From positions 1,452,501 through 1,516,500 of the forward strand of contig NC_022571.1 in NCBI RefSeq assembly GCF_000473995.1: 64,000 nt of DNA, read 5' to 3'. Each line of letters begins with the position of its first letter. Within the stretch, counting starts at the first letter, position 1. Below the pieces are notes generated by a model. The model did not search any database. It worked only from the letters and a program-made list of their open reading frames with translations, and was not told the origin of the DNA. The stretch comes from Clostridium saccharobutylicum DSM 13864. GTDB taxonomy: Bacteria > Bacillota > Clostridia > Clostridiales > Clostridiaceae. Below are positions 2,357 through 58,375 of this stretch, one piece after another. Position numbers and translations under genes: made by a program.

Positions 2357-2599
2357 CTTAAACTTATGTGATGACTTACCGAAAGAAGCTGTATTCTTTT
2401 TCTCGGTTGCTATATAATTTGGCTGTGGATTTCTACCAGTCGAAGTTGCACCTATTCATGCATGTTCCTCAAGCAAATTGATGACAAGCATGAATGGAAC
2501 AACTTCGGCTGAAGAAATGCCTACAGCTCAATTATAAATGCAATACTCCGAAAAAGAATACAGCTTCTTTCTAATATAGAATATATTGCAAAGTTTAAG
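2357..2599. repeat. Element E1: long imperfect palindrome, about 243 bp
   Basis: The two halves are inverted copies over almost the whole length. Outer ends are CTTAAACTT and AAGTTTAAG; inside them GAAAGAAGCTGTATTC (2380-2395) pairs with GAATACAGCTTCTTTC (2556-2571), and CGAAGTTG (2441-2448) pairs with CAACTTCG (2500-2507). The apical stem is TTCATGC/GCATGAA. Read on the minus strand, the centre (TTGAGGAACATGCATGAA) resembles the conserved loop of elements E2 and E4-E7, but less closely. It lies directly after the ABC operon and may also end that transcript. No coding potential. MITE-like or structured-RNA origin is inference. Confidence 0.7.
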
Positions 2600-2616
2600 C
2601 ATAATTATTAGTTTGT

Positions 2617-2871
2617 TTATCCATATATATATATTTTGCTTCCAACTAAGATAAAAAAAAATCCTGCTAACATGAAGCTTGAAATACTTAGCAATTTTTT
2701 ATTGTCATTTAATAAATTAATGCCAAGGAAAGTATTACAAAGCCCTAAACATATAAAAATAAACGGGAAACAGTCATTAGGATTTGAGTTACTTTCTATT
2801 AAATTTAATGATAAAATAGGCAATGTTATAGCTAAAATAAAATTAATTATATAAAAAGTTTTTTTGATCAA
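2617..2871 (-). CDS. Small three-helix membrane protein (possibly DUF3953-like)
   Basis: An 84-residue, strongly hydrophobic protein with three predicted membrane helices (about residues 5-23, 36-54 and 62-82) separated by short polar turns. The start is TTG, preceded by AAGGTGGTG at a suitable distance; no better start is present. Convergent with the ABC operon and alone in its transcript. Size and layout resemble small DUF3953-type proteins of Firmicutes, but I cannot confirm this without a profile search. Function unknown. The opposite-strand frame across the same bases is a shadow. Confidence 0.6.
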   Translation of the reverse strand: MIKKTFYIINFILAITLPILSLNLIESNSNPNDCFPFIFICLGLCNTFLGINLLNDNKKLLSISSFMLAGFFFILVGSKIYIYG

Positions 2872-3159
2872 TATTACACCACCTTACAAATGGAAAATTA
2901 TGTATCGCAATATTTAAATTATATACAAGCTAATTAAATTTTATTCCTAAAAAGAAAGAATTTTAATATTAGGCGCACTAAAATTATATGGGGGAATGCA
3001 AGCTGACATGAGAAGATATATATTTAGTGTATTATTAATATTGAACAAAAATTAGAACAAATGAATACCTTAATACATAAGGAGAAAAAATTGTATATAG
3101 AATTGTAATTTGAAATTTTATTGATTAAAAGAAAAAAATTAATAATGGAAGGTGTGTTC

Positions 3160-3480
3160 ATGATTACAAATATAAATGATGAAAATTTTCAAAAGGAAGT
3201 TTTAGAAGAAGAAAAATTAGTTTTAGTAGATTTTTCGGCATGGTGGTGTGGTCCTTGTAAAATGGTAGCACCTATACTAGAGAGAATATCAAATGAAAAT
3301 TGTAATATAAAGATTACTACTATTGATGTTGATAGAAGTCCAGTTGCTTCAATAAGATATCAAGTACAAAGCATTCCTGCAATTAAGTTTTTTAAAAATG
3401 GAGAAGTTGTAGATGAAATAATAGGATTTGCACCAAGAAAACAAATTGAAGAAGTTATAAATAAAAATTTATATAATTAA
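3160..3480 (+). CDS. trxA: Thioredoxin
   Basis: A 106-residue single-domain thioredoxin. The active site is WCGPCK near residue 29, preceded by DFSAW, and the cis-proline loop is QSIPAIKFF. It reduces protein disulfides in the cytosol, normally with electrons from thioredoxin reductase, which is not in this window. I start at ATG 3160, behind GGAAGGTG; a TTG 13 codons earlier would add a charged tail absent from the family and lacks a ribosome site. Length is typical. It is monocistronic, with AT-rich sequence on both sides. Confidence 0.93.
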   Translation: MITNINDENFQKEVLEEEKLVLVDFSAWWCGPCKMVAPILERISNENCNIKITTIDVDRSPVASIRYQVQSIPAIKFFKNGEVVDEIIGFAPRKQIEEVINKNLYN

Positions 3481-3644
3481 TATTTGCTAAAAATTATATA
3501 AAGGCATATTTAAATGTGAATGGATAATAAAAATAAATTTTCAAGGAAATATTAAAATTTATTAATACAGTATTATATGTAAATTAAAATATAAAATAAA
3601 TAGTTATCTTAAAATTTTTATTTTCAATAAATTTTAAGCATATG

Positions 3645-3850
3645 AAAAACAACAAGTCCCAAATGTTATGATTATCTTTCATTAGGCAAGGAAGCAGATT
3701 TGATTCATAGCAGTTCTATTAGAGCAATCTGATGATGAGCAGAGAACTTAAATCTATGATTTGATGATGGCCGCTTATTCTGTCAGTGTATGCGCATCAA
3801 GCATTTTATGATGGAAAATAATCATGATAGATGGACTTGTTATTGATTTT
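3645..3850. repeat. Element E2: palindromic element carrying both internal modules (minus orientation)
   Basis: Outer arms pair over about 30 bp: AACAAGTCC...ATGATTATCTTTC on the left with GAAAATAATCATGAT...GGACTTGTTATT on the right. Inside, on the minus strand, the conserved loop CTAATAGAACTGCTATGA (3722-3705) sits on a CAGATT/AATCTG stem and is followed by TTCCTTGCCTAATG. A diverged form of the second module (GAATAAGCGG, minus strand, about 3770) precedes it, the same order as in element E7. The gap 3481-3875 holds no gene. Confidence 0.75.
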
Positions 3851-3875
3851 AACTTAAGAAAACTATACTTGATTT

Positions 3876-4298
3876 TTAAATCTTTTTTAGAGAATTAAGT
3901 TTGGAAATTTTCTCATATATAGTGTACATGTCAATATTAGAATTGTTTGTAGAATCATTAAGTTTATTTGTTAATGCATTCTTTTCAGAAGTAGAATCAT
4001 TTAAAATATCTTCGTTAGAATTAGAAGTTATTGTTTTACAACATTTCTGATTATGAAGTTTTATTTCATCATCTATATTGTTTGAGATTACAGGTGAGAA
4101 TGTTTTTGAATCAGAATGTTGTGTTTTATTGGATTTAAGAGAGTTTAAAGTGTTTTTAAAGGAGTTAGAGTTATTAGTTTTTTTGGTAGAGGCAATATAC
4201 GTATTATTAGTATATGGTCTTTTAGTTATATTATTATTTGTACTAATTGCAGTTATAATGCAATTGTTATTTGAAACTAAGTTGATTTTATTAGACAT
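3876..4298 (-). CDS. Low-complexity Asn/Ser/Thr-rich hypothetical protein
   Basis: A 140-residue protein very rich in Asn, Ser, Thr and Lys, without a signal peptide, membrane helix or recognisable domain. A short ordered-looking C-terminus ends MYTIYEKISKLNSLKKI. I place the start at ATG 4298, because an AGGAGG site lies just upstream on the minus strand; an ATG 24 codons earlier adds a hydrophobic stretch but has no such site and runs into a repeat remnant. Two cysteines occur together in QKCCKT. Function unknown. It sits between two copies of the same repeat end and may be lineage-specific. Confidence 0.5.
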   Translation of the reverse strand: MSNKINLVSNNNCIITAISTNNNITKRPYTNNTYIASTKKTNNSNSFKNTLNSLKSNKTQHSDSKTFSPVISNNIDDEIKLHNQKCCKTITSNSNEDILNDSTSEKNALTNKLNDSTNNSNIDMYTIYEKISKLNSLKKI

Positions 4299-4344
4299 AC
4301 ATATTCCTCCTTTAGATATGAACACAATATTTATAATTTGAGCT

Positions 4345-4397
4345 ATTAGGCATATTATAAAAATAATCATGATATTTTGGACTTGTTATTTTCTTTA
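4345..4397. repeat. Deletion derivative of the E2-type element
   Basis: ATTAGGCA followed shortly by AAATAATCATGATA and TGGACTTGTTATT. These are an interior piece and the right end of E2, joined with the middle missing. It lies just upstream of the Asn/Ser-rich gene's start, so that gene is bracketed by E2-type ends. The rest of the gap 4299-4604 is AT-rich with no gene. Confidence 0.6.
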
Positions 4398-4551
4398 ATG
4401 TGCCTTATTTATATAATCGAAATGTTATTGGAAAAGTTTACTGAATATTAAGATAATTTTGGATTTAATATATAATATTACTAAAGAAAGATTTGAATGC
4501 GTCATTAAGATTATTTTTTATAAAGATTTAAAATAGATATGTGCAATAATA

Positions 4552-4592
4552 AATAGAGAAAAGTACATATTGAAATGTCTTTTCTCTATTTA
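4552..4592 (-). terminator. Rho-independent terminator of ilvE
   Basis: AAATAGAGAAAAG (4552-4564) pairs with CTTTTCTCTATTT (4580-4592); T-rich sequence follows on the minus strand. It starts 13 bases past the ilvE stop codon. Confidence 0.8.
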
Positions 4593-4604
4593 TTGTTAAA
4601 TTTA

Positions 4605-5633
4605 TTATTTTACTTCATAAATCCAACCTTCTGGAGCTTCTACATCACCAAGTTGAATTCCGTAAAGAATATCATATAATTTTTTTATAGTAGGACCTAC
4701 TTCAGTTTCACTATGGAATACATGTCTTTTACCTTCATAATCAATGGCACCGATTGGTGTTATTACAGCAGCAGTACCACAAGCACCTGCTTCTTTGAAT
4801 TCATCTAAATTATCAACAAAGACCTCTCTTTCATATACTGGCATCTTTAAGTAATGTTCAGCAATATAAAGTAAAGAATATTTAGTTATACTTGGTAAAA
4901 TTGAAGATGATTTTGGTGTAACAAATTCATTATTCTTAGTTATTCCAATAAAGTTTGCTGCTCCAACTTCATCAATTTTTGTATGAGTTGCAGGATCTAA
5001 ATAAATACAATCTGCATATCCATCTTTAGCAGCTTTTGCGTGAGCTTGTAATGATGCAGCATAGTTACCTCCAACTTTTTGTTTACCAGTTCCGTGAGGT
5101 GCAGCTCTATCATATTCATCTTGAACAATAAACTTACAAGGTTTTAAACCACCAGAGAAATAAGGTCCAACTGGCATACAAAATACTGTAAATATATATT
5201 CAGGTGCAGGTTTAACTCCTATATTATGTCCAACACCCATAATGATAGGTCTAATATATAAAGTAGCACCAGTACCATAAGGTGGAACATAGTCTATATT
5301 AGCTTTTACAACTTGCATAATAGCATCGATAAATTTTTCTTCAGGTACATGTGGCATAAGAAGTTTGTCACAGCTATCATTCATACGAGCTGCATTTCTA
5401 TCTGGTCTGAATAATTGTACTTTTCCTTCTTTTGTTCTATAAGCTTTTAAACCTTCAAAAGAACTTTGACCATAATGAAGGACGGTAGAAGCCTCGCTTA
5501 TATGAAGCATATTGTCTTCAGTAAGTTTTCCTTCATCCCATTTTCCATCTTTCCAAACTGAAATATAACGAAAATCTGTTTTGATATAATCAAATCCTAA
5601 TTTACTCCAGTCTATATCTGTTTTTTTCCCCAT
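4605..5633 (-). CDS. ilvE: Branched-chain amino acid aminotransferase
   Basis: A 342-residue fold-type IV PLP enzyme, the usual length for type 2 IlvE. It swaps amino groups between 2-oxoglutarate/glutamate and the keto acids of Leu, Ile and Val. Recognisable blocks are the N-terminal HYGQSSFEGLKAYR, the PLP-lysine region GTGKQKVGGNYAAS and the C-terminal GACGTAAVITPIG. I start at ATG 5633, with GGAGG eight bases upstream; a GTG five codons earlier overlaps that ribosome site. Monocistronic, with a clear terminator. No T-box leader is visible in the short upstream gap. Confidence 0.95.
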   Translation of the reverse strand: MGKKTDIDWSKLGFDYIKTDFRYISVWKDGKWDEGKLTEDNMLHISEASTVLHYGQSSFEGLKAYRTKEGKVQLFRPDRNAARMNDSCDKLLMPHVPEEKFIDAIMQVVKANIDYVPPYGTGATLYIRPIIMGVGHNIGVKPAPEYIFTVFCMPVGPYFSGGLKPCKFIVQDEYDRAAPHGTGKQKVGGNYAASLQAHAKAAKDGYADCIYLDPATHTKIDEVGAANFIGITKNNEFVTPKSSSILPSITKYSLLYIAEHYLKMPVYEREVFVDNLDEFKEAGACGTAAVITPIGAIDYEGKRHVFHSETEVGPTIKKLYDILYGIQLGDVEAPEGWIYEVK

Positions 5634-5703
5634 TTTATATTCCTCCACATCTATATTGGCTTATTGCCATTGTTTATTAATAACATATATTTTAGCACTA
5701 CTA

Positions 5704-5743
5704 AAAAAAAAATTCCACAATTCAATAAAAAAGGTGGAACTTT
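5704..5743 (-). terminator. Terminator of nadE
   Basis: On the minus strand GTTCCAC pairs with GTGGAA, followed by nine T residues, downstream of the nadE stop. A-rich sequence on the other arm could let it work in both directions. Confidence 0.7.
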
Positions 5744-5826
5744 TTTAGTAAAAGTGTAAATTTTTATAAATAAGCCTAAAGCATTAGCAATAATTTAAAA
5801 TTTTTTAATAGGCTGATATTAAAAAA

Positions 5827-7725
5827 TTAATTCCAAGGCACAGCATCGGATGGCATGCGCCAATCACCTCTTGGGCTTAAAGAAATGCTACCTACTTTAG
5901 GACCATCAGGAAGAGCGCTTCTTTTAAATTGTTGAGTAAAAAATCTATACATGAATTTATCTAACCATTTTTTAATTTCTTCTTCGCTATAATCATTTTT
6001 AAATGCTGTTTTAGCTAAGAAAAAGATTCTTTCTTTTGTAGATCCGTGTTTTATAAAATGGTACAAGAAGAAATCATGAAGTTCATAAGGGCCAACTATA
6101 TCTTCGGTCTTTTGAGTTATTTCACCATTTTTATCTTTAGGTAATAATTCAGGGCTAACAGGTGTATCTAATATATCCATAAGAGTATGGCTAACAATTT
6201 CATTAGATTCATTTTGAGCCACGTATTTAACCAAATATCTAACTAGTGTTTTTGGAATTGAAGGATTTACAGAATACATTGACATATGGTCTCCATTATA
6301 AGTACACCAACCAAGTGCAAGTTCTGATAAATCACCAGTACCAATTAAAAGGCCTCTTTCTTTATTTGCAATGTCCATTAAAATTTGAGTTCTTTCTCTA
6401 GCTTGAACATTTTCGTAGGTAACATCATGTATTTCCTTATCATGACCTATATCTTCAAAATGTTGAAGAGATGCTTTGACAATATTTATTTCTCTAAGAT
6501 CAGTTCCGAGTTCTCTGCATAAATCTAGAGCATTATTATAAGTCCTATCAGTAGTACCAAATCCAGGCATAGTTATAGTTACGATGTTCTTTTTATCTAA
6601 ATTCAGAAGCTCAAAAGTTTTAACAATTACAAGAAGAGCTAAAGTAGAATCTAATCCACCTGAAATTCCAATCACCGCTTTTTGGGATTTTGTATGTTCT
6701 AGCCTTTTGGCTAAGCTTGAAGCTTGTATATTGAAAATTTCTTTACAACGCATTTCTCTTTCTTTTTCAATGCTAGGAACAAATGGATGTCTATCGATAA
6801 ATCTATCAAAACTTTTTAATGAAGTATTACTAAACTCAAATTCGATTAAATGTGGTTTTTTATGTATCATTTTAGAAGAATCTCTAAAGCTAAGATTTTT
6901 CATTCTCTCAGATTTTAATTTAAATACATCGACTTCAGAATAAATGACTTCATTATCTCTTTGAAATCTTTTATTTTCTTTTAATAAAGAACCATTTTCA
7001 CTTATTAATAGATGTCCGCTAAATAAAACGTCAGTTGTAGATTCATGAACTCCAGCAGAAGCATAAATATAACTGCACATAGTTCGAGCACTTTGATTTG
7101 CGATAAGGTTTTTTCTATAATCCATCTTACTTACTAATTCGTTAGAGGCTGATAAGTTACCAATTATATGAGCACCCATAAGAGAAAGGTAAGAGCTTGG
7201 TGGGATTGCTACCCATAAGTCTTCACAGATTTCAACTCCAAAATTAGCTACATTAGAAGAGAAAATTAAATTTGTACCAAATGGAATGTTTTTTTGATAA
7301 GGTAAATCAATTATATCATTTTCTATAGAGATTCCTTCAGTAAACCATCTTTTTTCATAAAATTCGCTATAGTTAGGAATATAAGATTTTGGGACTATTC
7401 CTAAAATAGATCCTTTGAATAAAAGAAAAGCACAATTATATAAAACGCTATTTGAAATAAGTGGAGCACCGATTGCAATTAGCATATCATCATCTTTACT
7501 GGCAGATAATATTTCCTTGATTCCATATAATGATTTGTTTAATAGATATTCTTGTAAAAACAAATCACCACAAGTATAAGATGTAACGCATAGTTCTGGA
7601 AAAACTATAAATTTACTTCCTTTATTTTTTGCATCATTTATACATTTAATTATATTGTCAACATTATAATCAACATCACTAACCCTAGTTTTGGGACAGG
7701 CAGCCGCTACTTTAATAAAGTCCAT
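5827..7725 (-). CDS. nadE: Glutamine-dependent NAD+ synthetase
   Basis: A 632-residue two-domain enzyme that converts deamido-NAD+ to NAD+ using glutamine. The N-terminal half (about 1-290) is a nitrilase-type glutaminase with PELCVTSYTCGD (catalytic Glu) and VEICEDLW (nucleophile Cys). The C-terminal half (about 330-632) is an ATP-pyrophosphatase synthetase with GISGGLDSTLAL and the GTGDLSELALGWCTY block. Length matches the long bacterial/eukaryotic-type NadE. The start ATG has AAGGAGTGA upstream. It faces ilvE's promoter with its own terminator between, so it is probably monocistronic. Confidence 0.96.
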   Translation of the reverse strand: MDFIKVAAACPKTRVSDVDYNVDNIIKCINDAKNKGSKFIVFPELCVTSYTCGDLFLQEYLLNKSLYGIKEILSASKDDDMLIAIGAPLISNSVLYNCAFLLFKGSILGIVPKSYIPNYSEFYEKRWFTEGISIENDIIDLPYQKNIPFGTNLIFSSNVANFGVEICEDLWVAIPPSSYLSLMGAHIIGNLSASNELVSKMDYRKNLIANQSARTMCSYIYASAGVHESTTDVLFSGHLLISENGSLLKENKRFQRDNEVIYSEVDVFKLKSERMKNLSFRDSSKMIHKKPHLIEFEFSNTSLKSFDRFIDRHPFVPSIEKEREMRCKEIFNIQASSLAKRLEHTKSQKAVIGISGGLDSTLALLVIVKTFELLNLDKKNIVTITMPGFGTTDRTYNNALDLCRELGTDLREINIVKASLQHFEDIGHDKEIHDVTYENVQARERTQILMDIANKERGLLIGTGDLSELALGWCTYNGDHMSMYSVNPSIPKTLVRYLVKYVAQNESNEIVSHTLMDILDTPVSPELLPKDKNGEITQKTEDIVGPYELHDFFLYHFIKHGSTKERIFFLAKTAFKNDYSEEEIKKWLDKFMYRFFTQQFKRSALPDGPKVGSISLSPRGDWRMPSDAVPWN

Positions 7726-8079
7726 ATAATCACTCCTTCTAGCAATAAATTCTTAAATTACGATTTTAAAATTTTTTATACATAATTTACTTTTACTTGG
7801 TGAAATAAATTTATTTAAACTAACTATTATAATTTAGTTATGTATAACATTGATAATTTTGGTATGCTTTTTCACTTTATAGTAATCTTTTTCTTTATTA
7901 TCGTCAAGATTTAGATATTTTTATGTATAGTAATAACATATATTTATAGAAATTGGATTTGGAATAATTTTAAAATAAATAAGATACATTTGAAAATTAT
8001 ATATGTAATAAAATTAATTAGAATTAATACTAAAAAAAGCAATATGAGAATATTATTACTGATAGGGGGAGGCGATAAT
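7726..8079. other. Divergent intergenic region nadE / nfeD
   Basis: AT-rich sequence between divergent genes that must hold promoters for both. I cannot pick a convincing -35/-10 pair and see no riboswitch, repeat or small gene. A frame open from 7990 only extends the downstream membrane gene and lacks a ribosome site. Confidence 0.4.
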
Positions 8080-8502
8080 ATGAATTTGCTTGTATTTTGG
8101 TTAATTATTGTAATTTGTACATTTGTTATAGATATATTAACCAGTAACTTTTGTTTTGTGTTATTTTCTATAGGTGCTATAGTAGCAGCTATATGTGGAA
8201 TATTTGGAATGTCATTTATGATGCAAATAATAATTTTTGCAATAATAAGTATCGTGGCATTAATAATAGGATATCCAATACTGAAGAATAAAAATATACG
8301 TATGTGTAAAAAAACATTACTTATGGAAGAAACTTATATTGGAAAAGTAATGAAGAGTGAAAATGAAATTTCTGATAAAGCTCAGATTAAAGTTAATGGA
8401 GAATATTGGACTGCAATAAATGAAGGGGAGGTAATACATCCAGGTGAAAAATTTGTTATTACAGGGATTGAAGGTATTAAACTAAAAATAAAAAAAGCAT
8501 AG
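8080..8502 (+). CDS. NfeD-like membrane protein
   Basis: A 140-residue protein with two to three N-terminal membrane helices (about residues 3-20, 26-44 and 48-68) and a small C-terminal soluble domain ending GEKFVITGIEGIKLKIKKA, the OB-fold tail of NfeD proteins. The family partners SPFH/flotillin-like proteins in membrane microdomains, and such a gene follows six bases later. The ATG at 8080 is chosen because GGGGGAGG precedes it; the frame is open 30 codons further upstream without support. Biochemical role unproven. Confidence 0.8.
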   Translation: MNLLVFWLIIVICTFVIDILTSNFCFVLFSIGAIVAAICGIFGMSFMMQIIIFAIISIVALIIGYPILKNKNIRMCKKTLLMEETYIGKVMKSENEISDKAQIKVNGEYWTAINEGEVIHPGEKFVITGIEGIKLKIKKA

Positions 8503-8514
8503 GGGGAGTTGGAA

Positions 8515-9462
8515 ATGGCTTTACTAGTAATACTAGGAGTACTATTAATATTGATATTAATAGTAGTGTTATCGTCAATTAAAATTGTAAATACAGGATA
8601 TTTATATGTAGTAGAAAGGTTTGGGCAATTTGATAGGATTTTGGAGCCAGGATGGCATTTTATATTACCATTTGTAGATTTTGTGAGAAGAAGAGTATCA
8701 ACAAAACAACAAATACTAGATGTGCCACCACAATCAGTTATAACTAAAGATAATGTTAAAATTTCTGTTGATAATGTTATTTTTTATAAATTGTTAAATC
8801 CAAGAGATGCTGTTTATAATATAGAGGATTTTAAATCGGGAATAGTATACTCTTCAACAACAAATATGAGAAATATAATTGGAAACATGACATTGGATGA
8901 AGTATTGTCAGGAAGAGACAAAATAAATTTAGATCTTTTAAGTATTATAGATGAAGTTACTGATGCTTATGGTATAAAAATACTTTCTGTAGAGATTAAA
9001 AATATAATACCACCGGCTGAAATTCAACAAGCTATGGAAAAACAAATGAGGGCTGAAAGAGATAAGAGAGCTATGATTCTTCAGGCGGAAGGATTGAGGC
9101 AATCGCAAATTGAAAAAGCAGAGGGTGAAAAACAGTCTCAAATCTTAAAAGCAGAAGCAGAAAAGCAGGCAAATATAAGAAGAGCTGAAGGATTAAAGGA
9201 ATCTCAATTATTAGAAGCAGAAGGTAAAGCTAAAGCAATAGAACAAATTGCTATTGCAGAAGCTGAAGCTATTAGGAAAGTAAATACCGCCATTATAGAA
9301 TCTGGTACTGATGAGCGAGTTATTGCATTAAAACAAATTGAAGCGCTTAAGGAAATGGCGAACAGTCCTGCTAATAAGCTTATATTACCAAATGAGACAT
9401 TGTCATCACTAGGAAATATAGCTGCAATAGCGGATACATTAAAAGGCGTTATAAACAAATAA
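8515..9462 (+). CDS. SPFH/band-7 domain protein (QmcA/stomatin-like)
   Basis: A 315-residue protein: one N-terminal membrane helix (about 2-22), the SPFH domain (about 25-190, with GYLYVVERFGQFDRILEPGWH and QILDVPPQSVITKDNV), then a long Ala/Glu/Lys/Gln-rich helix (about 190-260) made of near-repeats such as AEGEKQSQ and AEGLKESQ, and a hydrophobic end. This architecture forms oligomeric membrane rings thought to organise microdomains or regulate proteases. Start is ATG 8515 behind GGGGGAG; a TTG two codons earlier overlaps that site. It forms a two-gene operon with nfeD and is followed by a terminator. Confidence 0.9.
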   Translation: MALLVILGVLLILILIVVLSSIKIVNTGYLYVVERFGQFDRILEPGWHFILPFVDFVRRRVSTKQQILDVPPQSVITKDNVKISVDNVIFYKLLNPRDAVYNIEDFKSGIVYSSTTNMRNIIGNMTLDEVLSGRDKINLDLLSIIDEVTDAYGIKILSVEIKNIIPPAEIQQAMEKQMRAERDKRAMILQAEGLRQSQIEKAEGEKQSQILKAEAEKQANIRRAEGLKESQLLEAEGKAKAIEQIAIAEAEAIRKVNTAIIESGTDERVIALKQIEALKEMANSPANKLILPNETLSSLGNIAAIADTLKGVINK

Positions 9463-9482
9463 ATATAAGAAAAATAATTAAG

Positions 9483-9520
9483 CAACAAATAGATAAATAT
9501 AGCTATTTGTTGTTTTTGTT
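9483..9520 (+). terminator. Terminator of the nfeD-SPFH operon
   Basis: CAACAAATAG pairs with CTATTTGTTG, followed by TTTTTG, 20 bases after the SPFH stop. Confidence 0.85.
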
Positions 9521-9571
9521 CATATTTAGAAATAAAAAATAACTTTAATGAAAGATTTAATTAAGGAGCAT

Positions 9572-9679
9572 GAAAATAAATAACAAGTCAAATTTGCTGT
9601 GAATCGCTTACTCAGTGAGCAAATTCAAGTCGAGATTTCTATGATAAAAAATAGACAGGTAAATGGATTTGTTATTTTC
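9572..9679. repeat. Element E3: short palindromic element with second module only
   Basis: Ends are GAAAATAAATAACAAGTC on the left and GGATTTGTTATTTTC on the right, inverted to each other. The interior 9601-9620 is GAATCGCTTACTCAGTGAGC. Its reverse complement recurs at 38968-38987 in element E7 with one mismatch, and flanking CGACTTG is also shared. The first-module loop is absent, so this is a shortened member. With the terminator before it, it fills the 331-base gap after the SPFH gene. Confidence 0.7.
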
Positions 9680-9793
9680 TGAATGTTACTAAGAGAATTT
9701 GTGATAAAACTTGCTTTGTTTAGCTGTGTTGAAATAGTGAAAAAAAAGTATTAATATATACTTATCAGTATAAAAAACAGCTGAGGTGAAAAA

Positions 9794-10303
9794 ATGAAGA
9801 AAAAAAACATAGTTAGTATATTAATGTGCATGGTATTATCTTTTTCTTTATTTGGATGTAGTTTTAAAGATGATTATATAATTCAAACAAAAGAAAATAC
9901 TGATGAAAAACCATCAGGTGATAAAGTCAACGAAGTATTTAATTCAGAAAAAATGAAAGATCTAATGGATAAGTTGAAATCTACGCCTAAAAAGATTTCG
10001 GACAAGGCAGATGAAGTTGACAGTGATACTACAAGAATGATGAATGAATTAAATGATAAGGCTGATGAATTAACTGATGCAATAAATGATGCTGATGTTG
10101 ATGGGAAAAGTGAGGATATAAAAGCTAAATTTGATGACATATCGGATGAACTTGATAAAGTAAATGAAAAAGTTAATGATGCAAAGGAAAAATCAGATAG
10201 TTTTGAAAATCCTGTTGATGAAACTAAAATTACTGATACAGTAGATGAATTTACATCTCATATGAATAACTTAGAAAATGCATTAAATAGAGTAGGAAAA
10301 TAA
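9794..10303 (+). CDS. Secreted helical lipoprotein of unknown function
   Basis: A 169-residue protein with a lipoprotein signal: basic KKKN start, hydrophobic stretch, lipobox LFGC with Cys22. The mature part is acidic, rich in Asp, Lys, Glu and Ser, and predicted helical with coiled-coil character (repeated DKADE, DKVNEK and DDISDELDK-like segments). No enzymatic motif is present. GAGGTG lies ahead of the ATG. It should be anchored to the outer face of the membrane. It stands alone, with E3 before it and a strong terminator after it. I do not recognise the family. Confidence 0.7.
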   Translation: MKKKNIVSILMCMVLSFSLFGCSFKDDYIIQTKENTDEKPSGDKVNEVFNSEKMKDLMDKLKSTPKKISDKADEVDSDTTRMMNELNDKADELTDAINDADVDGKSEDIKAKFDDISDELDKVNEKVNDAKEKSDSFENPVDETKITDTVDEFTSHMNNLENALNRVGK

Positions 10304-10363
10304 CATAATAAAGATTAAATTCAGAATTAATATGTATTTGTTAGACTTTTTTTAGACGAGGAT

Positions 10364-10411
10364 GAGAAAAAACAATATATAATTTATAGATTATATATTG
10401 TTTTTTCTCAA
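10364..10411. terminator. Terminator after the lipoprotein gene
   Basis: GAGAAAAAACAATATATAAT pairs perfectly with its inverted copy across the loop TTATAG; A and T runs in both arms allow action in either direction. Confidence 0.85.
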
Positions 10412-10521
10412 TTTAATTTAGTAGGTGAAATACATGAAAGAAAACAGAAAAAATGCTTGATTCTTTTACTTTAGTATGATAAAGTAGTGAATAGAAAAAG
10501 CGATGCAAAGGGGAAATAATT

Positions 10522-11364
10522 ATGAAGATAAATAAATTACTTAAAAAGTTAGCTATTGTTGGAGTTGTAGTTACTTTAGGAACAAGTTTAGTAGCATGTG
10601 GTGGAAATTCAGCTGCAAATAAATCGGGTAATTCTAAAGCAGAAGCAAGTACATTAGATAAAGATGAATTGGTAATAGGTTTAGATGATACATTTGTACC
10701 AATGGGATTTAAAGATGATAGTGGAGAATTAGTTGGATTTGATGTTGACCTTGCAAAAGCAGTTGGTGAGAAGCTTAATAAAAAAATTAAATTTCAAGCT
10801 ATTGACTGGAGTATGAAGGAAAGTGAACTTAAGAATGGAAATATAGATTTAATATGGAACGGATATTCAATTAATGATGAAAGAAAAGAAAAAGTTGATT
10901 TTTCAAAGCCATATTTGAATAATACACAAGTAATAGTAACTTTAGCTGATTCTTCTATAAATACTAAAGAAGATTTAGCAGGGAAAAAAGTTGGAGCACA
11001 AGATCAATCTACTGCAGTAGATGCTGTTGAAAATGATAAAGATAACATAATGTCAAAATTTAATGGTGGAAATCTTGTTACATTTGCAGATAATAATGAT
11101 GCTTTAATGGATCTAGAAGCAAAAAGATTAGATGCCATTGTTGTAGATGAAATCTTAGCTAGATATTATATAAAAGCAAGAGGCGAAGAAAAGTATAAAA
11201 TATTGAAAGATAACTTTGGTCAAGAGCAATATGGTGTGGGAATAAGAAAAGGCGATACTAAGTTTGTAGATGCATTTAATAATGCTTTAGATCAAGTTAT
11301 TGCAGATGGTAAAGCAGCAGAAATATCAAAAAAATGGTTTGGACAAGATATTGTTATTAAATAA
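10522..11364 (+). CDS. Polar amino acid ABC transporter substrate-binding lipoprotein
   Basis: A 280-residue family 3 solute-binding protein. The signal peptide ends in lipobox LVACGG with Cys26. The mature part shows ELVIGLDDTFVPMGFKDDSGELVGFDVDLAKAVGEK near its start and DLIWNGYSINDERKEKVDFSKPY, diagnostic of the His/Gln/cystine-type binders. It captures the ligand outside and delivers it to the permease encoded next. The exact amino acid is not determinable by eye; this subgroup often binds cystine or another polar amino acid. AAGGGGAAA precedes the ATG. Confidence 0.92.
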   Translation: MKINKLLKKLAIVGVVVTLGTSLVACGGNSAANKSGNSKAEASTLDKDELVIGLDDTFVPMGFKDDSGELVGFDVDLAKAVGEKLNKKIKFQAIDWSMKESELKNGNIDLIWNGYSINDERKEKVDFSKPYLNNTQVIVTLADSSINTKEDLAGKKVGAQDQSTAVDAVENDKDNIMSKFNGGNLVTFADNNDALMDLEAKRLDAIVVDEILARYYIKARGEEKYKILKDNFGQEQYGVGIRKGDTKFVDAFNNALDQVIADGKAAEISKKWFGQDIVIK

Positions 11365-11418
11365 TATCTTAGGATAATAGATGTGGTTTTTTTGGAACAA
11401 TAAAGAGGAGGAATAACT

Positions 11419-12060
11419 TTGAGTTATATTTTAGAATTAATGCCTCAAGTATTAGAGGGGCTTAAGGTAACATTAGAAATTTTTGCATTAACATTAACAC
11501 TATCGATTCCACTTGGAATACTTGTAGCGGTAATGAGAGTTTCGAAATCTCTAATGCTAAGTAAAATAAGTGGGGTATATGTACTTATAATGAGAGGAAC
11601 TCCGTTATTGTTACAAATCATTGTTATATTTTTTGGATTGCCTATAGTTGGAATTACCTTTGATAGATTTCCAGCAGCAATTTTAGCTTTTACTTTAAAT
11701 TATGGAGCGTATTTTGGCGAAATATTTAGAGCAGGAATAATGTCTATTGATAATGGTCAAATAGAAGGAGCGCAGGTTTTAGGATTAACTACTAAAGATA
11801 CATTTTTTAGAATAATACTTCCACAGGCATTTAAAAGAGTACTTCCACCTGTTGCAAATGAAATAACTACTTTAGTAAAAGATACATCTTTGGTTTATGT
11901 ATTGGGATTAGATGAATTACTTAAGCTTGGAAAAATTGCAGCAAATAGAGATGTTTCATTGATGCCACTTGTAATAGTTGGTGCGGTATATTTAATAGTA
12001 ATAGCAGTTTTAAGTCAGATATTAAAAAGAGTGGAACAGAAGTATAATTACTATGAATAA
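11419..12060 (+). CDS. Polar amino acid ABC transporter permease
   Basis: A 213-residue His/Glu/Gln/Arg-type permease with about five membrane helices. The cytosolic coupling loop GAQVLGLTTKDTFFRIILPQAFKRVLPP is conserved, and RGTPLLLQIIVIFFGLP is a family signature. The start is TTG, supported by AGGAGGAATAAC directly upstream and by the family-typical N-terminus (LELMPQVLEGLKVTLEI). It lies between the binding protein and the ATPase, as in most amino acid importers. Confidence 0.93.
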   Translation: MSYILELMPQVLEGLKVTLEIFALTLTLSIPLGILVAVMRVSKSLMLSKISGVYVLIMRGTPLLLQIIVIFFGLPIVGITFDRFPAAILAFTLNYGAYFGEIFRAGIMSIDNGQIEGAQVLGLTTKDTFFRIILPQAFKRVLPPVANEITTLVKDTSLVYVLGLDELLKLGKIAANRDVSLMPLVIVGAVYLIVIAVLSQILKRVEQKYNYYE

Positions 12061-12075
12061 ATTGGAGGAACATAA

Positions 12076-12756
12076 ATGCTTAAGGTTAGAGGAATAAAAA
12101 AGAAATTTAAAAATATAGAAGTTTTAAAAGGTGTAGACCTTGAAGTAAGAACTGGAGAAATTTTAGTTGTTGTTGGGCAATCTGGTGGAGGAAAAACTAC
12201 ATTACTTAGGTGTGTAAATGCATTAGAACATTGTGATGAAGGCGATATAGAAATTAACGATAAGTTATTATGCAAAAATGGAAAATATGTGGATAAAAAG
12301 GAGCTTAAAGAAATAAGAAAAGATGTAGGTTTTGTATTTCAAAATTATAATTTATTTCCGCATATGACTGTGCTGGAAAATTTAATAGAAGCACCTCAAA
12401 GAGTATTAGGATGTTCAAAAGAGCAAGCTGTGAAAAAAGCAGAAGAAACTCTTGGTTTTTTAGGATTAGTAGATAAAAAAGGAAATTATCCTTTTGAATT
12501 ATCAGGAGGTCAAAAACAAAGAGTTGCAATTGGAAGAGCACTTGTATTGGAACCAAAGATAATGTGCTTTGATGAGCCGACATCGGCGTTAGATCCAGGA
12601 TTGACGGAAGAAGTAGCTAATTTAATAAAAAGTCTCAGTGAAAAGGGCATGAGTATGATGATTATAACTCACGATATGAACTTTGCAAAAAAGATAGCTG
12701 ATAGAATAGTTTCTATGAATAAAGGACAACTTCAAGAAGGGATAATTTTTGAATAA
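12076..12756 (+). CDS. Polar amino acid ABC transporter ATP-binding protein, GlnQ-like
   Basis: A 226-residue ATPase with Walker A GQSGGGKTT, Q-loop FQNYNLFPHMTVLENL, signature LSGGQKQR, Walker B IMCFDEPTSALDP and switch histidine in IITHDMNFA. The NLFPHMTVLEN segment is typical of the amino acid subfamily. It follows the permease by 15 bases with GGAGGAAC as ribosome site and completes the importer operon. It ends 12 bases before a palindromic element that may act as terminator. Confidence 0.94.
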   Translation: MLKVRGIKKKFKNIEVLKGVDLEVRTGEILVVVGQSGGGKTTLLRCVNALEHCDEGDIEINDKLLCKNGKYVDKKELKEIRKDVGFVFQNYNLFPHMTVLENLIEAPQRVLGCSKEQAVKKAEETLGFLGLVDKKGNYPFELSGGQKQRVAIGRALVLEPKIMCFDEPTSALDPGLTEEVANLIKSLSEKGMSMMIITHDMNFAKKIADRIVSMNKGQLQEGIIFE

Positions 12757-12768
12757 TATTATGAGGGT

Positions 12769-12911
12769 GAAAATAAATAACACGTCCAATTTGCTATGTA
12801 TATTATTCATTAGGTAAGGCGAGGAAGTGCCTTCATAGCGAGTTCATTAAGTCAATTTACTGACATATCATAATTGGAAATAGGCAGACAGATTGATTTG
12901 TTATTTATTTG
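12769..12911. repeat. Element E4: palindromic element, first module, minus orientation
   Basis: Ends are GAAAATAAATAACACGTC and GATTTGTTATTTATTTG, inverted, the same terminal type as E3. Inside are TTCATTAGGTAAGG and the loop TCATAGCGAGTTCATTAAG (12833-12851), whose reverse complement aligns with the conserved loop of E2 and E5-E7. The stem under the loop is poor here, so the copy may be decayed. It begins 12 bases after the ABC ATPase stop codon. Confidence 0.7.
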
Positions 12912-12936
12912 AAGATGTTTTATAGATAAAAACTTT

Positions 12937-13045
12937 AATAGAACAAGCACTTGATTTTATAAAATATAAAAGTTGAATAAATGCTTTAGATACAAAACAA
13001 TAAATTCAGCATTTTAATGTTTAATCAATAAGTGTTTGTTCTATT
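12937..13045. repeat. Inverted repeat of a further type, terminator-like
   Basis: AATAGAACAAGCACTTGATT (12937-12956) pairs with the right arm 13023-13045, which contains AAGTGTTTGTTCTATT; about 17 positions pair. Then GTTATTTTT follows. The roughly 66-base interior is AT-rich. It may be a second terminator of the amino acid ABC operon or another small mobile palindrome. Terminal sequence differs from E1-E7. Confidence 0.5.
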
Positions 13046-13208
13046 GTTATTTTTACAATATATGATAATGAGGTATTGATTGCGTTATAGAAGATTATAA
13101 AATGCTAAATTCGAAAAAAAGTTAAAAAAATTTAAAAATTATATACTTTTTTTAATTAATTTTAAAATGAGAAGGTTTAAAATTATAAAATTTTTATTAT
13201 GATTTGTG

Positions 13209-13237
13209 TTGAATTATAGAATAAAGTGTGGTATTCT
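13209..13237 (+). promoter_or_regulatory. Promoter of the zinc-ribbon gene with about 100-base leader
   Basis: TTGAAT (13209-13214), 17-base spacer, TATTCT (13232-13237) with an extended TGG just before the -10. The leader from about 13245 to 13345 is less AT-rich than its surroundings and contains CCTCTGtttCAGAG, a small hairpin. Confidence 0.5.
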
Positions 13238-13345
13238 TAAAGAGTAAGATAATTCAAGATTTAATCAATACTGTACATTCGCCTCTGTTTCAGAGATTGG
13301 GTCTAGTATCGGGTTATGTCTTTGGAAAAAGGGAGGATTTTTATA

Positions 13346-13513
13346 ATGGAAGATAGAACTTTAGTATGTAAAGATTGTGGAAAGGAATTCATTTTCACAG
13401 TTGGAGAACAAGAATTCTACAAAGAAAAAGGATTTGACAACGATCCAGTTAGATGTCCAGATTGTAGAAGAGCTAGAAAGCAACAAAGAAACAATAGAAA
13501 CTTCGACAGATAG
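13346..13513 (+). CDS. Small zinc-ribbon protein
   Basis: A 55-residue protein with two Cys pairs, CKDCGKEF and CPDCRRA, spaced as a zinc ribbon, plus a basic C-terminal tail (RRARKQQRNNRN). It matches the small probable zinc-ribbon (zf-trcl) family common in Clostridia. The start is ATG 13346 with GGGAGG upstream; an ATG ten codons earlier would place the ribosome site inside the gene. Function unknown; binding to nucleic acid or ribosome is only inferred from charge and fold. Confidence 0.85.
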   Translation: MEDRTLVCKDCGKEFIFTVGEQEFYKEKGFDNDPVRCPDCRRARKQQRNNRNFDR

Positions 13514-13521
13514 TAGACTAT

Positions 13522-13550
13522 AGGGCCATAAGATATTCTTATGGCCCTTT
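13522..13550 (+). terminator. Terminator of the zinc-ribbon gene
   Basis: AGGGCCATAAGA pairs with TCTTATGGCCCT across a three-base loop, followed by TTCTTTTT, nine bases past the stop. Confidence 0.92.
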
Positions 13551-13715
13551 CTTTTTATATAAATTTAATTGGAGTGAGCTTAATTATGTATAAATAATTA
13601 AGTTTGATTTTTCTGTTTTGATTCTGCTATTAGATATGGTGTCTTCTGTGATTGTTGTTTTTTACAACGGCACTTAGTGAACTAAAATATTTATAGAGTT
13701 AATTATGATTAAAAG

Positions 13716-13761
13716 ATTACTATAAGAGTTAAACTTTATACTTTTATAGTAATTTTTTTTT
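13716..13761 (+). terminator. Orphan terminator-like hairpin
   Basis: ATTACTATAAgAG (13716-13728) pairs with CTTTTATAGTAAT (13741-13753), followed by a run of eight or more T. The nearest gene upstream already has its own terminator, so this one could end an unannotated small RNA or be a decayed remnant. Confidence 0.55.
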
Positions 13762-13824
13762 GTAGTAATTGTTAAGTTATTGGTAATACTAGTTCTATGA
13801 TTAGTATTGGATTGTTATATTTTG

Positions 13825-13989
13825 TTAAGGCACAATCAAAAAAATAATAGACCAGTATACGTGTATATTTCGCGTCATACTGCGTCGGCAAATTCTGCTA
13901 ATAGACCCGCTATGAGCAGAATTCGCCTCCTTGTGTGACGCGAAATATTCTACGAATCTTTGGTCTATTATTTTTTTTCGTGTGCCTAA
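13825..13989 (+). repeat. Element E5: palindromic element, second terminal type, first module
   Basis: Ends TTAAGGCACA and TGTGCCTAA are inverted; next inward AAAAAAATAATAGACC pairs with GGTCTATTATTTTTTT. The middle arm TTTCGCGTCA pairs with TGACGCGAAA. The apical stem AATTCTGCT (13891-13899) pairs with AGCAGAATT (13915-13923) around loop AATAGACCCGCTATG, followed by CCTCCTTGTGTGACGCG. It is a near-complete palindrome of 165 bp. A minus-strand frame across it is the palindrome itself, not a gene. Confidence 0.8.
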
Positions 13990-14238
13990 GCTGCAAAAAT
14001 TACTATTATATTGAGACAATGTTTTTATTACATTGCAGAAACATATATATCATAAATAAATTTAATCTTGTTAATTTATATAAAAAAATACTTGTGGTTT
14101 TTAAGTTCTAGAAAAATCATAAGTCGGTTATTGTTGGCGATAATTAAAAGAAAAATTAAATATACGAATTATGTTATTAAAAAAACGAGATTAAGTTCGG
14201 TAAAATAAAGAAATAAAGAAAAAACAATATGAATTTAG

Positions 14239-14265
14239 TTGACAATGTACGTGTTAGATGATAAT
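14239..14265 (+). promoter_or_regulatory. Possible purL operon promoter
   Basis: TTGACA (14239-14244) and GATAAT (14260-14265); the 15-base spacer is shorter than ideal. About 100 bases upstream of the purL start. Downstream, CGAATA-AA-TATTCG (14301-14314) is a small palindrome that could be an operator. Confidence 0.35.
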
Positions 14266-19628: not shown

Positions 19629-19790
19629 TAAGGCACAATAAAAAAATAATAGACCAGTATGCTTGTCTATTTTGCGTCATACTGCGTCAGTAAAATCAAC
19701 TAATAGCACCACTATGATCTGATTTTACTTTCTTGACTGACACTAAATAAGCGTCGCATCTTTGGTCTATTATTTTTTTCATATGCCTAA
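19629..19790 (+). repeat. Element E6: palindromic element inside the pur cluster
   Basis: Same terminal type as E5: AAGGCACAATAAAAAAATAA on the left and an inverted copy ending TATGCCTAA on the right. The interior TGCGTCATACTGCGTC matches E5 closely. The apical stem TAAAATCA (19691-19698) pairs with TGATTTTA (19720-19727). The loop CTAATAGCACCACTATGA is conserved but the stem sequence differs completely from that of E5, then TTTCTTGACTGAC follows. It ends 28 bases before the purF start. Confidence 0.8.
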
Positions 19791-38890: not shown

Positions 38891-39173
38891 TTAAGGTACA
38901 ATAAAAAAATAATATACCAGTATGCTTGTTTATTCTGCATCATATAAAGAAAGCCCGACTTGCATATGCTCGCTGAGTAAGCGATTCGCACAAAATCAAA
39001 GATTGCAATGTGTGAAAATTCTGCTAACCAAATATAAAAATTCGAGCATTACTTTTGGTTATCTGTTTATAAGCAAATTTAGCTAATTGGAACCGCTATG
39101 AGCTAAATTTATATCCTTGTCTAACGCGTTATATGCATCGCATTTTTGGTTTATTATTTTTGCTTATGTCTAA
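38891..39173 (+). repeat. Element E7: largest palindromic element, both modules, upstream of hutP
   Basis: Ends TTAAGGTACAATAAAAAAAT and the inverted right end TATTATTTTTGCTTATGTCTAA are of the E5/E6 type. It holds an extra block of about 120 bp absent from E5 and E6. That block contains GCTCGCTGAGTAAGCGATTC (38968-38987, the E3 module), a TTCGCACA/TGTGTGAA hairpin and an AACCAAA/TTTTGGTT hairpin. The first module follows: stem AAATTTAGCT (39075-39084) with AGCTAAATTT (39101-39110), loop AATTGGAACCGCTATG, then ATCCTTGTCTAACGCG. The right end is two bases from the hutP GGAGG site. Confidence 0.8.
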
Positions 39174-39189
39174 TTGGAGGTGCTCATAT

Positions 39190-46480: not shown

Positions 46481-46680
46481 GCGATGAATAGGAAAAGTAG
46501 ATTTAGTGTAGACACTAAGAGAGGAAGTGGATGGTGAAAACTTCTTGCTATATTACTTCGAAGCTACCTAGGAGCTATAAATTACTAAGTGATGTATAAA
46601 TTTATACATAATTAGGGTGGTACCGCGGAATTTTAGCTTTCGTCCCTTATTTTTTTTAGGGAGAAAGCTTTTTATTTTGT
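46481..46680 (+). ncRNA. T-box leader, alanine-specific, of alaS
   Basis: Contains the T-box AGGGTGGTACCGCG (46614-46627), stem I elements (GAATAGGAAAAGTAGATT start; GGAAGTGGATGGTGAAAAC) and a terminator, AGCTTTC/GAAAGCT with TCCCT/AGGGA (46635-46678) and T-run. A plausible specifier is GCT (Ala) at 46563-46565. Uncharged tRNA-Ala should favour the antiterminator and read-through into alaS. Between 46680 and 46884 about 200 bases of leader remain without further structure noted. Confidence 0.92.
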
Positions 46681-56407: not shown

Positions 56408-56424
56408 ATTTTTGGAGGAAATTA

Positions 56425-57069
56425 ATGAGTAAAATTACATATGACTATATGGAAGATTACATTAGAGGTTTAATCCCTAATAGAGAGGGTCGATTAAAAG
56501 AAATAGAAGATCTTGCAAGGGAAAATGGTGTTCCTATAGTTCAAAAAGAAACAGGTGTATTTTTAGAATTTATGACAAGTATGAAAAAACCAAAGAGAAT
56601 ATTAGAATTAGGCACTGCAGTAGGTTTTTCATCAATATTAATGTATGAAGCAGCAGGAACAGAACCTGAAATTATAACAATTGAACGTGATGAAAAAATG
56701 ATAGAACTTGCAACATCTAATTTAGAAAAATTTAATTTAGGTCATAAAATAAAAATTGAAAAAGGTGATTGTTTAGAAATTTTAGAAAAACTAAATGAGC
56801 CATTTGATTTTATATTTATGGATGCAGGTAAAGGACATTATAATCATTTTTTACCTCATTGTTTAAGGCTACTAAGTCAAGAGGGAATAATTGTAGCAGA
56901 TAATGTTTTGTTTAGAGGAATGGTTGCATCACAGGAATTAGTTAAGAGAAGAAAAATAACTATAGTTAAAAGAATGAGAACATATTTAGATATGGTTACA
57001 CAAGATGAAAAATTAATTACATCTGTAATACCTATGGGTGATGGAATTGCAGTTACAAAGAGGAGGTAA
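56425..57069 (+). CDS. trmR: tRNA 5-hydroxyuridine methyltransferase TrmR (YrrM-like)
   Basis: A 214-residue class I SAM methyltransferase of the O-methyltransferase family 3 fold: ILELGTAVGFSSILM (SAM loop), ITIERDEKM, FDFIFMDAGKGHYNHFLP with metal-binding Asp, VADNVLFRG. Bacillus TrmR (YrrM) makes 5-methoxyuridine at tRNA position 34; the next gene provides the hydroxylation step, which supports this assignment over a catechol-type enzyme. GGAGG precedes the ATG. Confidence 0.88.
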   Translation: MSKITYDYMEDYIRGLIPNREGRLKEIEDLARENGVPIVQKETGVFLEFMTSMKKPKRILELGTAVGFSSILMYEAAGTEPEIITIERDEKMIELATSNLEKFNLGHKIKIEKGDCLEILEKLNEPFDFIFMDAGKGHYNHFLPHCLRLLSQEGIIVADNVLFRGMVASQELVKRRKITIVKRMRTYLDMVTQDEKLITSVIPMGDGIAVTKRR

Positions 57070-57075
57070 GCAAAA

Positions 57076-58311
57076 ATGAGAAAACCAGAAATTTTAGCAC
57101 CAGCTGGAAATTTAGAAAAATTAAAAATAGCAATAGATTTTGGAGCAGATGCAGTATATCTTGGTGGTAGTAAGCTTAATTTAAGAGCTTTTTCAAATAA
57201 TTTAACAAATGAAGAAATGGTAGAAGGAATAAAATATTGTCATGATAGAGGAAAAAAAGTATATGTAACTTTAAATGTTTTTGCAAGAAATCATGATTTA
57301 AAAGGTGCAGGAGATTATATTAAGGAGTTATATGATTTAGGGATAGATGCCATAATTGTGGCGGATCCTTCATTAATTTCTATAGCTAAAGAGGTGGCAC
57401 CCAAATTAGAATTACACTTAAGCACGCAAGCGAATACTGTGAATTGGGTTGCAACTAAGTTTTGGTATGATCTAGGAGTAAAGAGAGTAGTGTTAGCTAG
57501 AGAGTTAACATTTAATGAAATAAATACTATAACTTCTAATATTCCTGAAGGATGTGATATAGAAGCGTTTGTACATGGATCAATGTGTATTGCATATTCA
57601 GGAAGATGTTTAATATCAAATTATATGCTTGGAAGGGATGCAAATAAAGGTATCTGTGCAAATGCATGTAGATTTAAATATCATTTAATGGAAGAAACTA
57701 GACCAGGAGAATATTATCCAGTAATAGAAGACGATAATGGTACATACATAATGAATTCTAAAGATTTGTGCATGATTCATTATATACCTGAACTTGTTAA
57801 GAGTGGAATATATTCATTTAAAATTGAAGGTAGAATGAAGAGTGAATTTTATGTGGCTTCAGTTGTTAAGGCCTATAGAGAAGCTTTAGATAGCTACTGG
57901 GAGAATCCAGATAAGTTTGAATTTAAGCAAGAATGGATGGATATATTAAATAAAGTAAGTCATAGGCAGTATCATACAGGATTCTTCTTAGGAAAAAGCG
58001 GAGAACAGAATTATGATGAATCATCATATGTTAGAGATTATGAAATTGTAGGAATTGTTAAAGAATATGATGAAAAAACTCAAGTAGCAACAATTCTTCA
58101 AAAAAATAGAGTATTTGAAAGTGATGAAATTGAAGTGCTAAGAGCACAATCTCCATACTTTAAAATAAAAATTTCAGACATGTTTGATGTGGAAAAAAAT
58201 GTTGAGACAAATGTTGCTAATAGAGCACATATGATTTTTAAGGTGAAAGTTGATAAACCATTGCAAAAGAATGACATGTTAGTAAAAGAAAATAAAACTT
58301 TATCAGTTTAA
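57076..58311 (+). CDS. trhP: U32-family tRNA U34 hydroxylation protein TrhP
   Basis: A 411-residue U32 protein: ILAPAGNLEKLKIAIDFGADAVYLGG at the N-terminus; AFVHGSMCIAYSGRCLIS followed by GICANACRF, the four-Cys set for an Fe-S cluster; and FKIEGRMKSEFYVASVVKAYREALD. TrhP (YrrN/YrrO, YegQ) uses prephenate to form ho5U at tRNA position 34. Here one gene stands where Bacillus has two. AGGAGG precedes the ATG, seven bases after trmR. Older annotation calls these peptidases. Confidence 0.9.
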   Translation: MRKPEILAPAGNLEKLKIAIDFGADAVYLGGSKLNLRAFSNNLTNEEMVEGIKYCHDRGKKVYVTLNVFARNHDLKGAGDYIKELYDLGIDAIIVADPSLISIAKEVAPKLELHLSTQANTVNWVATKFWYDLGVKRVVLARELTFNEINTITSNIPEGCDIEAFVHGSMCIAYSGRCLISNYMLGRDANKGICANACRFKYHLMEETRPGEYYPVIEDDNGTYIMNSKDLCMIHYIPELVKSGIYSFKIEGRMKSEFYVASVVKAYREALDSYWENPDKFEFKQEWMDILNKVSHRQYHTGFFLGKSGEQNYDESSYVRDYEIVGIVKEYDEKTQVATILQKNRVFESDEIEVLRAQSPYFKIKISDMFDVEKNVETNVANRAHMIFKVKVDKPLQKNDMLVKENKTLSV

Positions 58312-58320
58312 ATCTAGGAA

Positions 58321-58375
58321 CAATAACAAGTTGAAAATTCAATGTATATTTTTTACGATGATTATTTGTTGTTTT
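58321..58375. repeat. Deletion derivative of the E2-type element
   Basis: CAATAACAAGT on the left and ATTATTTGTTGTTTT on the right match the two E2 ends (inverted orientation), with the middle missing. It starts ten bases after the trhP stop codon. Confidence 0.5.

Follow-up and report, generated by a model that had tools for sequence, protein, structure and literature searches.

We analysed a window of 64,000 nucleotides (positions 1452501-1516500) of the Clostridium saccharobutylicum DSM 13864 genome, which consists of one contig of 5,107,814 bases. Seven palindromes in this window (at 3645, 4345, 9572, 12769, 13825, 19629, and 38891) belong to a superfamily that we call AB, and one, at 2357, belongs to a second family, C. 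The AB palindromes are very probably miniature inverted-repeat transposable elements (MITEs), gene-less elements that duplicate a TWA target (TTA or TAA) and are moved by a transposase encoded elsewhere. A first-pass annotation had placed ten intergenic palindromes of the window in a single modular family and had offered MITEs, a structured RNA, or REP-like (repetitive extragenic palindromic) sites as explanations. For AB, the first of these is borne out: the elements occur in many copies with repeated termini, three bases of the target are duplicated, and empty sites exist. The seven long palindromes named there are real (2357-2599, 3645-3850, 9572-9679, 12769-12911, 13825-13989, 19629-19790, and 38891-39173), as is the short derivative at 4345-4397. 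The grouping was wrong in composition, as AB and C are distinct and two of the ten items are at chance level, and in size, as there are hundreds of copies.

Five AB items (3645, 4345, 9572, 12769, and 38891) were scored against two consensus-like AB sequences, which were typed in, with shuffles as control. The scores range from 61.6 to 146.2, and the shuffle maxima from 37.2 to 54.4. The two supposed short derivatives at 39836-39873 and 58321-58375 score 36.2 and 36.8, against shuffle maxima of 33.8 and 36.2, respectively. The TWA flanks agree at four copies in the window (those starting at 4349, 13829, 19632, and 38895 in Table 1). The AB boundaries are slightly wider than those given earlier, and the C palindrome extends beyond 2357-2599 on both sides.

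In its canonical orientation, an AB element reads GGCACATGAAA...TTTGA(A/T)TGTGCC, with the ends GGCACATGAAA and GGCACA(A/T)TCAAA, and it carries imperfect terminal inverted repeats of about 26 bp. A 15-base pattern for these ends, allowing at most one mismatch, matches the genome 781 times (382 + 399), while the reversed control matches 9 times (7 + 2). Searches of the genome with one query per sort returned at least 74, 91, and 77 matching pieces, 40 candidates having been scored of 328, 246, and 271, respectively. Many more copies exist in the genome, and the loop and terminal matches noticed on first inspection survive alignment.

TTA or TAA lies outside both AB ends, in direct repeat. Flanks were compared in 2.064 Mb of contiguous sequence (40% of the genome, including the first 864 kb) and in 82 other loci, comprising 80 of 106 genome-contig stretches and two viral contigs. 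In the first 864 kb there are 23 TTA/TTA pairs, 16 TAA/TAA pairs, and 8 mixed pairs (39 of 47 agree; Fisher p = 5e-6). The flanks agree in 104 of the 125 pairs in the 2.064 Mb, and in 94 of 96 pairs in the other loci (93 of 95 without a duplicate). Because agreeing flanks are direct repeats, they reflect a target duplication and not an extended inverted repeat. The duplication is three bases long; its middle base agrees, which rules out the TA duplication of the IS630 type. AB would be inserted into TWA, with duplication of that trinucleotide, through cut-and-paste by a DDE-type transposase whose gene lies elsewhere.

Among pairs with agreeing flanks in this genome, lengths are most often 150-160 bp, and other clusters lie around 50, 220, and 30 bp, though some of the long rows are spurious; in the other loci the commonest length is 150-159 bp (47 of 94). 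Both ends and the duplication are kept in five rows of only 32-35 bp, which are most simply read as internal deletions. From alignment by eye, the short forms in general (32 to about 145 bp) would be internal deletions, and the longer ones, of about 220 to 290 bp, would have arisen when small repeats such as module D, described below, inserted in the inner hairpin.

Filled and empty sites were sought with 135 joined flank pairs, for which many of the spanning matches were the sites themselves or repeats. Comparison of such sites confirmed the insertion of AB. A 158-bp copy flanked by TAA on each side interrupts a family C palindrome; a C paralogue that lacks the insertion reads ...ACCGAAA[TAA]GGGTAATTC, with one TAA. 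Two copies of this genome have clean empty sites in other genomes: a 225-bp copy (L288, target TTA) is absent from a Clostridium metagenome-assembled genome (MAG), and a 39-bp copy (L315, target TAA) is absent from C. uliginosum. The matches listed include at least 11 further copies in this genome that share 95-97% identity with the query over 156-158 bases; such near-identical copies point to recent AB activity.

Several results weigh against the interpretation of AB as MITEs. In this genome 21 of the 125 flank pairs do not agree, and the looseness of the end pattern may account for some of these. A C. beijerinckii copy (L264) is absent here, and only its right flank is clean; in a paralogous region (L042) one junction aligns, with TTA where the joined site has TAA; and a third junction (L268) gave no clean alignment. 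This last case and other weak junctions were not counted as empty-site support. No autonomous AB copy was found in the contiguous 40% of the genome or in the 82 other loci. PF13359 and PF13340 had no match in any of 11 AB-carrying genomes, and PF13586 had none in 36 genomes.

TWA/TNA duplications are made by IS5/IS1031 and Harbinger-like enzymes, and the Tourist-type MITEs of PIF/Harbinger and of IS5/IS1031 have a 3-bp TWA/TNA duplication with terminal repeats other than those of AB. AB shares the TWA duplication with these groups, which points to an enzyme of this sort; however, neither DDE_Tnp_4 nor DUF4096 had a match in the 11 AB-carrying genomes. The IS630 transposase domain DDE_3 (PF13358) has no match in this genome at E <= 0.001. 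The earlier statement that the window holds no transposase stands for the five families that were searched there (PF13586, PF01609, PF13359, PF13340, and PF13358). Inverted repeats around 34 places with DDE_Tnp_1 (four in the analysed part of this genome, and 30 loci, some cut by contig ends) include none of the GGCACA type, with at most four repeats listed per place. Six groups of multicopy genes in the 2.064 Mb are transposase-like (four confirmed by Pfam), and none has AB ends.

Equal-flank end pairs 0.6-4 kb apart number 24 in the 2.064 Mb and 42 in the other loci, and these enclose 30 and 43 reading frames of at least 170 aa, respectively. Twenty of the 73 frames were searched against Pfam; for the others, the N-terminal residues were inspected by eye. 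One encodes a Mutator/IS256-type transposase, one a phage integrase, and two have no Pfam family; otherwise, no transposase-named family was seen. The Mutator/IS256-type gene (PF00872), enclosed by a long pair of this genome, was rejected as the partner of AB: this insertion sequence has termini of its own (GGGACAGTAG...) and lies about 40 bases past a short but complete copy of AB, and neither of its two other copies in the 2.064 Mb has AB ends at its borders. One of these two (ORF 1578299-1579537) occupies the loop of a B-type AB element and by eye has ACTATGAG on either side; AB hairpins in turn serve as insertion targets. The phage-integrase gene (PF00589; L286:3656-4417, in a Clostridium MAG), enclosed by one of the 42 long pairs, was also discarded: it lies on the opposite strand about 150 bases from an AB left end, and the second "end" matches poorly and overlaps the gene, with no proper right end seen.

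Placement relative to genes was assessed with crude ORF calls (at least 80 aa, covering 80% of bases) and with 88 AB copies, reduced from 104 pairs by end quality and length. One of the 88 lies mostly inside an ORF, compared with 70.7 expected from random placement (minimum 61 in 300 trials). This distribution suggests that insertions inside genes would be removed by purifying selection. Stop-codon-side distances are 0-6 bases in 17 of 82 cases, of which seven are 0 (a manual count); at distance 0, the stop codon itself is the duplicated TAA. When a TAA stop codon is the target, the duplication restores the stop, and insertion just behind a gene would therefore be harmless. The copies have no orientation preference, with 29 along and 33 against flanking co-directional genes, and gene orientation around them resembles the background. 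These counts do not favour an RNA function for the neighbouring genes, which had been among the options.

One alternative is that AB consists of extragenic palindromes of the REP or BIME (bacterial interspersed mosaic element) type, which act as binding or terminator sites and spread without a cut-and-paste transposon. Module D resembles such repeats, being a unit of roughly 70 bases with two hairpins that is present in 16 of 59 genomes, sometimes as tandem copies, and to that extent the REP-like option applies to D. The well-defined ends of AB and its duplication of TWA largely refute this alternative for AB. AB copies are not enriched in convergent gaps (10 of 87 copies versus 188 of all 1359 gaps counted), and window positions 2200-20000 hold 6 terminator-like sites where 5.0 are expected, an absence of excess on which a terminator role of the elements was rejected. 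We consider the REP/BIME explanation of AB very improbable.

Hairpin structure was studied in an alignment of 81 copies, each about 158 bp long and with matching flanks, three of 84 having been dropped first as odd or composite. RNAalifold gave a partial structure for these copies; since it favours G-U pairs, we used instead a Watson-Crick-only fold in which neither strand is preferred, and this yielded one hairpin of 64 pairs across the whole 158-bp element. In a count over 66 pairs in 40 of the 81 copies, 91.3% of the cells are paired. Changes on both sides occur at 36 pairs and in 245 cells, compared with 25.2 pairs and 90.1 cells in shuffles (0 of 500 reach it) and with 14-20 pairs and 30-41 cells in slid-partner controls; as the structure comes from the same alignment, the excess over the slides is partly built in, and the excess over the shuffles may reflect relatedness. 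The 158-bp core is a full-length hairpin with strong compensatory change, whose arms appear to have stayed complementary while the sequences diverged. Single-strand folding is weak for some copies (z = -0.24 for 38880-39183); the fold of the C palindrome at 2357-2599 has z = -13.3.

The mismatches that remain in the hairpin differ between G-T and A-C. Inner pairs (column 42 on) have 240 G-T and 83 A-C cells, whereas outer pairs have 71 and 62. The asymmetry is found both in copies of this genome (106:50) and in copies from other species (134:33), and it is absent from family C of the same genome (86 versus 94, in 22 of 30 sequences, eight loci without an orientation marker having been dropped). 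Changes from Watson-Crick pairs in the inner hairpin went to G-T 36 times and to A-C 16 times on internal branches (p = 0.008), and 66 and 47 times on terminal branches; for the outer pairs the numbers are 7 and 3, and 48 and 49, respectively. This pattern is suggestive, post hoc, of a tolerance of G·U over A·C on one strand of the inner hairpin, and gives a hint that source copies may have been selected as a folded single strand. We regard it as possible, though doubtful, that the inner hairpin acts as a folded single strand of one particular strand (RNA, or single-stranded DNA in transposition) and is selected beyond mobility. The inner/outer split was set after the per-pair table had been viewed, rare variants show no G-T excess (27 versus 38 A-C), and the change events differ weakly between inner and outer pairs (102:63 versus 55:52; Fisher p = 0.10). 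The copies probably recombine, and the tree is therefore only a guide. The lack of bias relative to the direction of host transcription, given above, also speaks against such a role, as does Rfam: no match over the gathering threshold lies at an element, the sole one in the window being a T-box at 46475-46650, and none of five sub-threshold matches in 2200-20000 falls at an element.

Family C is a second palindrome family, independent of AB. Its ends resemble TAGATAAACAA, its borders are mostly TA, and the empty-site test gave no clean case for it. We consider AB and C separate because their ends differ and because an AB copy is nested in a C palindrome. The reading that all palindromes of the window form one modular family was accordingly rejected: module D is common to AB and to C-type palindromes, but the two families differ in ends, flanks, lengths, and stems. 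Two C-type palindromes, with ends like TATAGATATCCAA, enclose a DUF772/DDE_Tnp_1/DDE_Tnp_1_6 transposase gene (2675624-2676952, and 3432989-3434455, which is L243:16489-17955), presumably of the IS1182 family (IS1182-like). The possibility that this transposase marks an autonomous C element, with a C-type end in its flank, was dismissed after both copies were read; the gene lies inside the palindrome. IS1272, as described in the portion of PMC5678879 used here, transposes by replacing stem-loops and has palindromes as targets. The gene inside the two C-type palindromes recalls that system (PMC5678879, same portion), which bears on C-type palindromes as targets and not on AB, whose target is duplicated.

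The mixing of modules that had been described earlier was also found here. A-type copies of about 224 bp consist of the 158-bp core and an insert of roughly 70 bases, module D, which also occurs in two family C-type palindromes. Its orientation within AB is constant wherever that of the core is readable. Module D looks like a REP-type repeat; in other genomes it stands alone or in tandem (L383), and the genomes that carry it include three (G001, G016, and G017) in which no AB match was seen. Its loci include L110, L364, L377, L379, and L383, and in L364 and L377 it apparently follows directly after a stop codon (frames unchecked). A 422-aa DDE_Tnp_1 insertion sequence, with five copies in the analysed part of the genome (L129:5546-6814 and four others), has the ends CAATGTCGTCAACTTA and a flank repeat of about 10 bp; by eye, several of the five copies are flanked by module D-like sequence, as if it were a preferred target. 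In AB copies of other species (L297, L307, L313, and L319), either arm can carry a module rich in GCAGCTATGCTGC, and those of C. frigidicarnis (L295, L299, and L320) have long inserts with AATTGTCAATTCTCAATT-like repeats. It is conceivable, though we judge it improbable, that AB is a class of transposon that would spread via one folded strand (single-stranded DNA or RNA) of the 158-bp hairpin, maintained by compensatory change and tolerant of G·U on that strand alone, read by TWA-duplicating machinery, and would also be a platform for module D.

The 158-bp element has matches in at least 23 of 68 genomes of the genus (E <= 1e-4, up to 12 candidates being scored in each), and the A-type query matches 13 of 59 relatives at E <= 0.001, this genome counted in. 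The sole A-type match outside the genus covers 35 bases and was taken as chance. Among the 80 records listed with the exact AB left end, the names are of Clostridium, apart from one MAG named Bacillota bacterium. The A-type element had no match in phages and plasmids, and the two end patterns found 0 and 2 stretches in IMG/VR.

The features of the window are collected in Table 1. For the composite element at 38895, BLAST returned A as well as B pieces, and its strand was taken from the interior since the ends are ambiguous. Two other structures were seen: the T-box leader (119.6 bits), upstream of an 879-aa ORF at 46885, and a 54-base palindrome at 27982-28035, behind an ORF ending at 27953, whose arms are 87% complementary and which has no AB ends; it is perhaps a terminator.

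Table 1. Palindromic elements of the 64,000-nucleotide window (positions within the window; TSD, target-site duplication)
Feature	Position	Strand	Evidence
Family C palindrome, 285 bp	about 2339..2623		Ends TAGATgAAtAA / TTTATCcA, TA both sides; ends unrelated to AB
AB, A type with inserted module D, eroded ends	3638..3850	+	Consensus score 135.2, shuffle maximum 44.6
Module D, diverged copy within A-type element	3735..3810 (approximate boundaries)	+	D core at 3748
Short AB derivative, 56 bp, TTA both sides	4349..4404	-	Score 78.6, shuffle maximum 37.2
AB with module D remnant	9565..9689	+	TAA at 9562-9564 and 9690-9692 by eye; score 91.8, shuffle maximum 42.0
AB without module D, eroded ends	12768..12912	+	Score 146.2, shuffle maximum 42.2; soon after stop codon 12754-12756
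AB, B type, 158 bp, full hairpin, TAA both sides	13829..13986	-	TSD-verified pair; related copies elsewhere in genome (query 19615-19805)
AB, B type, 156 bp, TAA both sides	19632..19787	-	TSD-verified; in 81-copy alignment
Composite AB, 276 bp, TAA both sides	38895..39170	-	B-type ends, module D and further insert; score 61.6, shuffle maximum 54.4

Small non-autonomous transposons of this kind are known. As described in the parts of PMC2229807 and PMC3049150 drawn on here, RUP of Streptococcus pneumoniae is 107 bp long and AT-rich, with more than 100 intergenic copies, a TA target, and the partner IS630-Spn1 with similar ends. RUP and AB both have terminal repeats, a target duplication, and a hairpin with paired ends, and movement in trans by an insertion sequence has been proposed for RUP (same parts of PMC2229807 and PMC3049150). 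AB differs from RUP as portrayed there in its TWA target and in that no partner was found, DDE_3 having no match in this genome; neither the TA duplication nor the IS630 transposase typical of RUP and Correia elements was thus found for AB. The BOX elements of streptococci, in the part of PMC3049150 used, are like AB modular, variable in length, structured, and nested with other repeats; compared by description, BOX length varies by internal boxB copies, whereas AB length varies by deletion and by insertion of the independent repeat D. The REP/RAYT (REP-associated tyrosine transposase) paper PMC3733652 contains no occurrence of Clostridium, and no description of AB was found in the open-licence PMC literature searched. 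The superfamily appears to be new in its target, its missing partner, and its nested modules.

These Clostridium palindromes now have a defined boundary, target, and history, which allows them to be masked in annotation and their insertions to be dated in comparative studies. The missing transposase of a family with hundreds of copies, some of them 97% identical, is a testable gap. One inserted repeat common to two unrelated palindrome families amounts to parasites on parasites. The strand-asymmetric hairpin, if true, would link a folded single strand to the mobility of an element that has inverted ends and duplicates its target.

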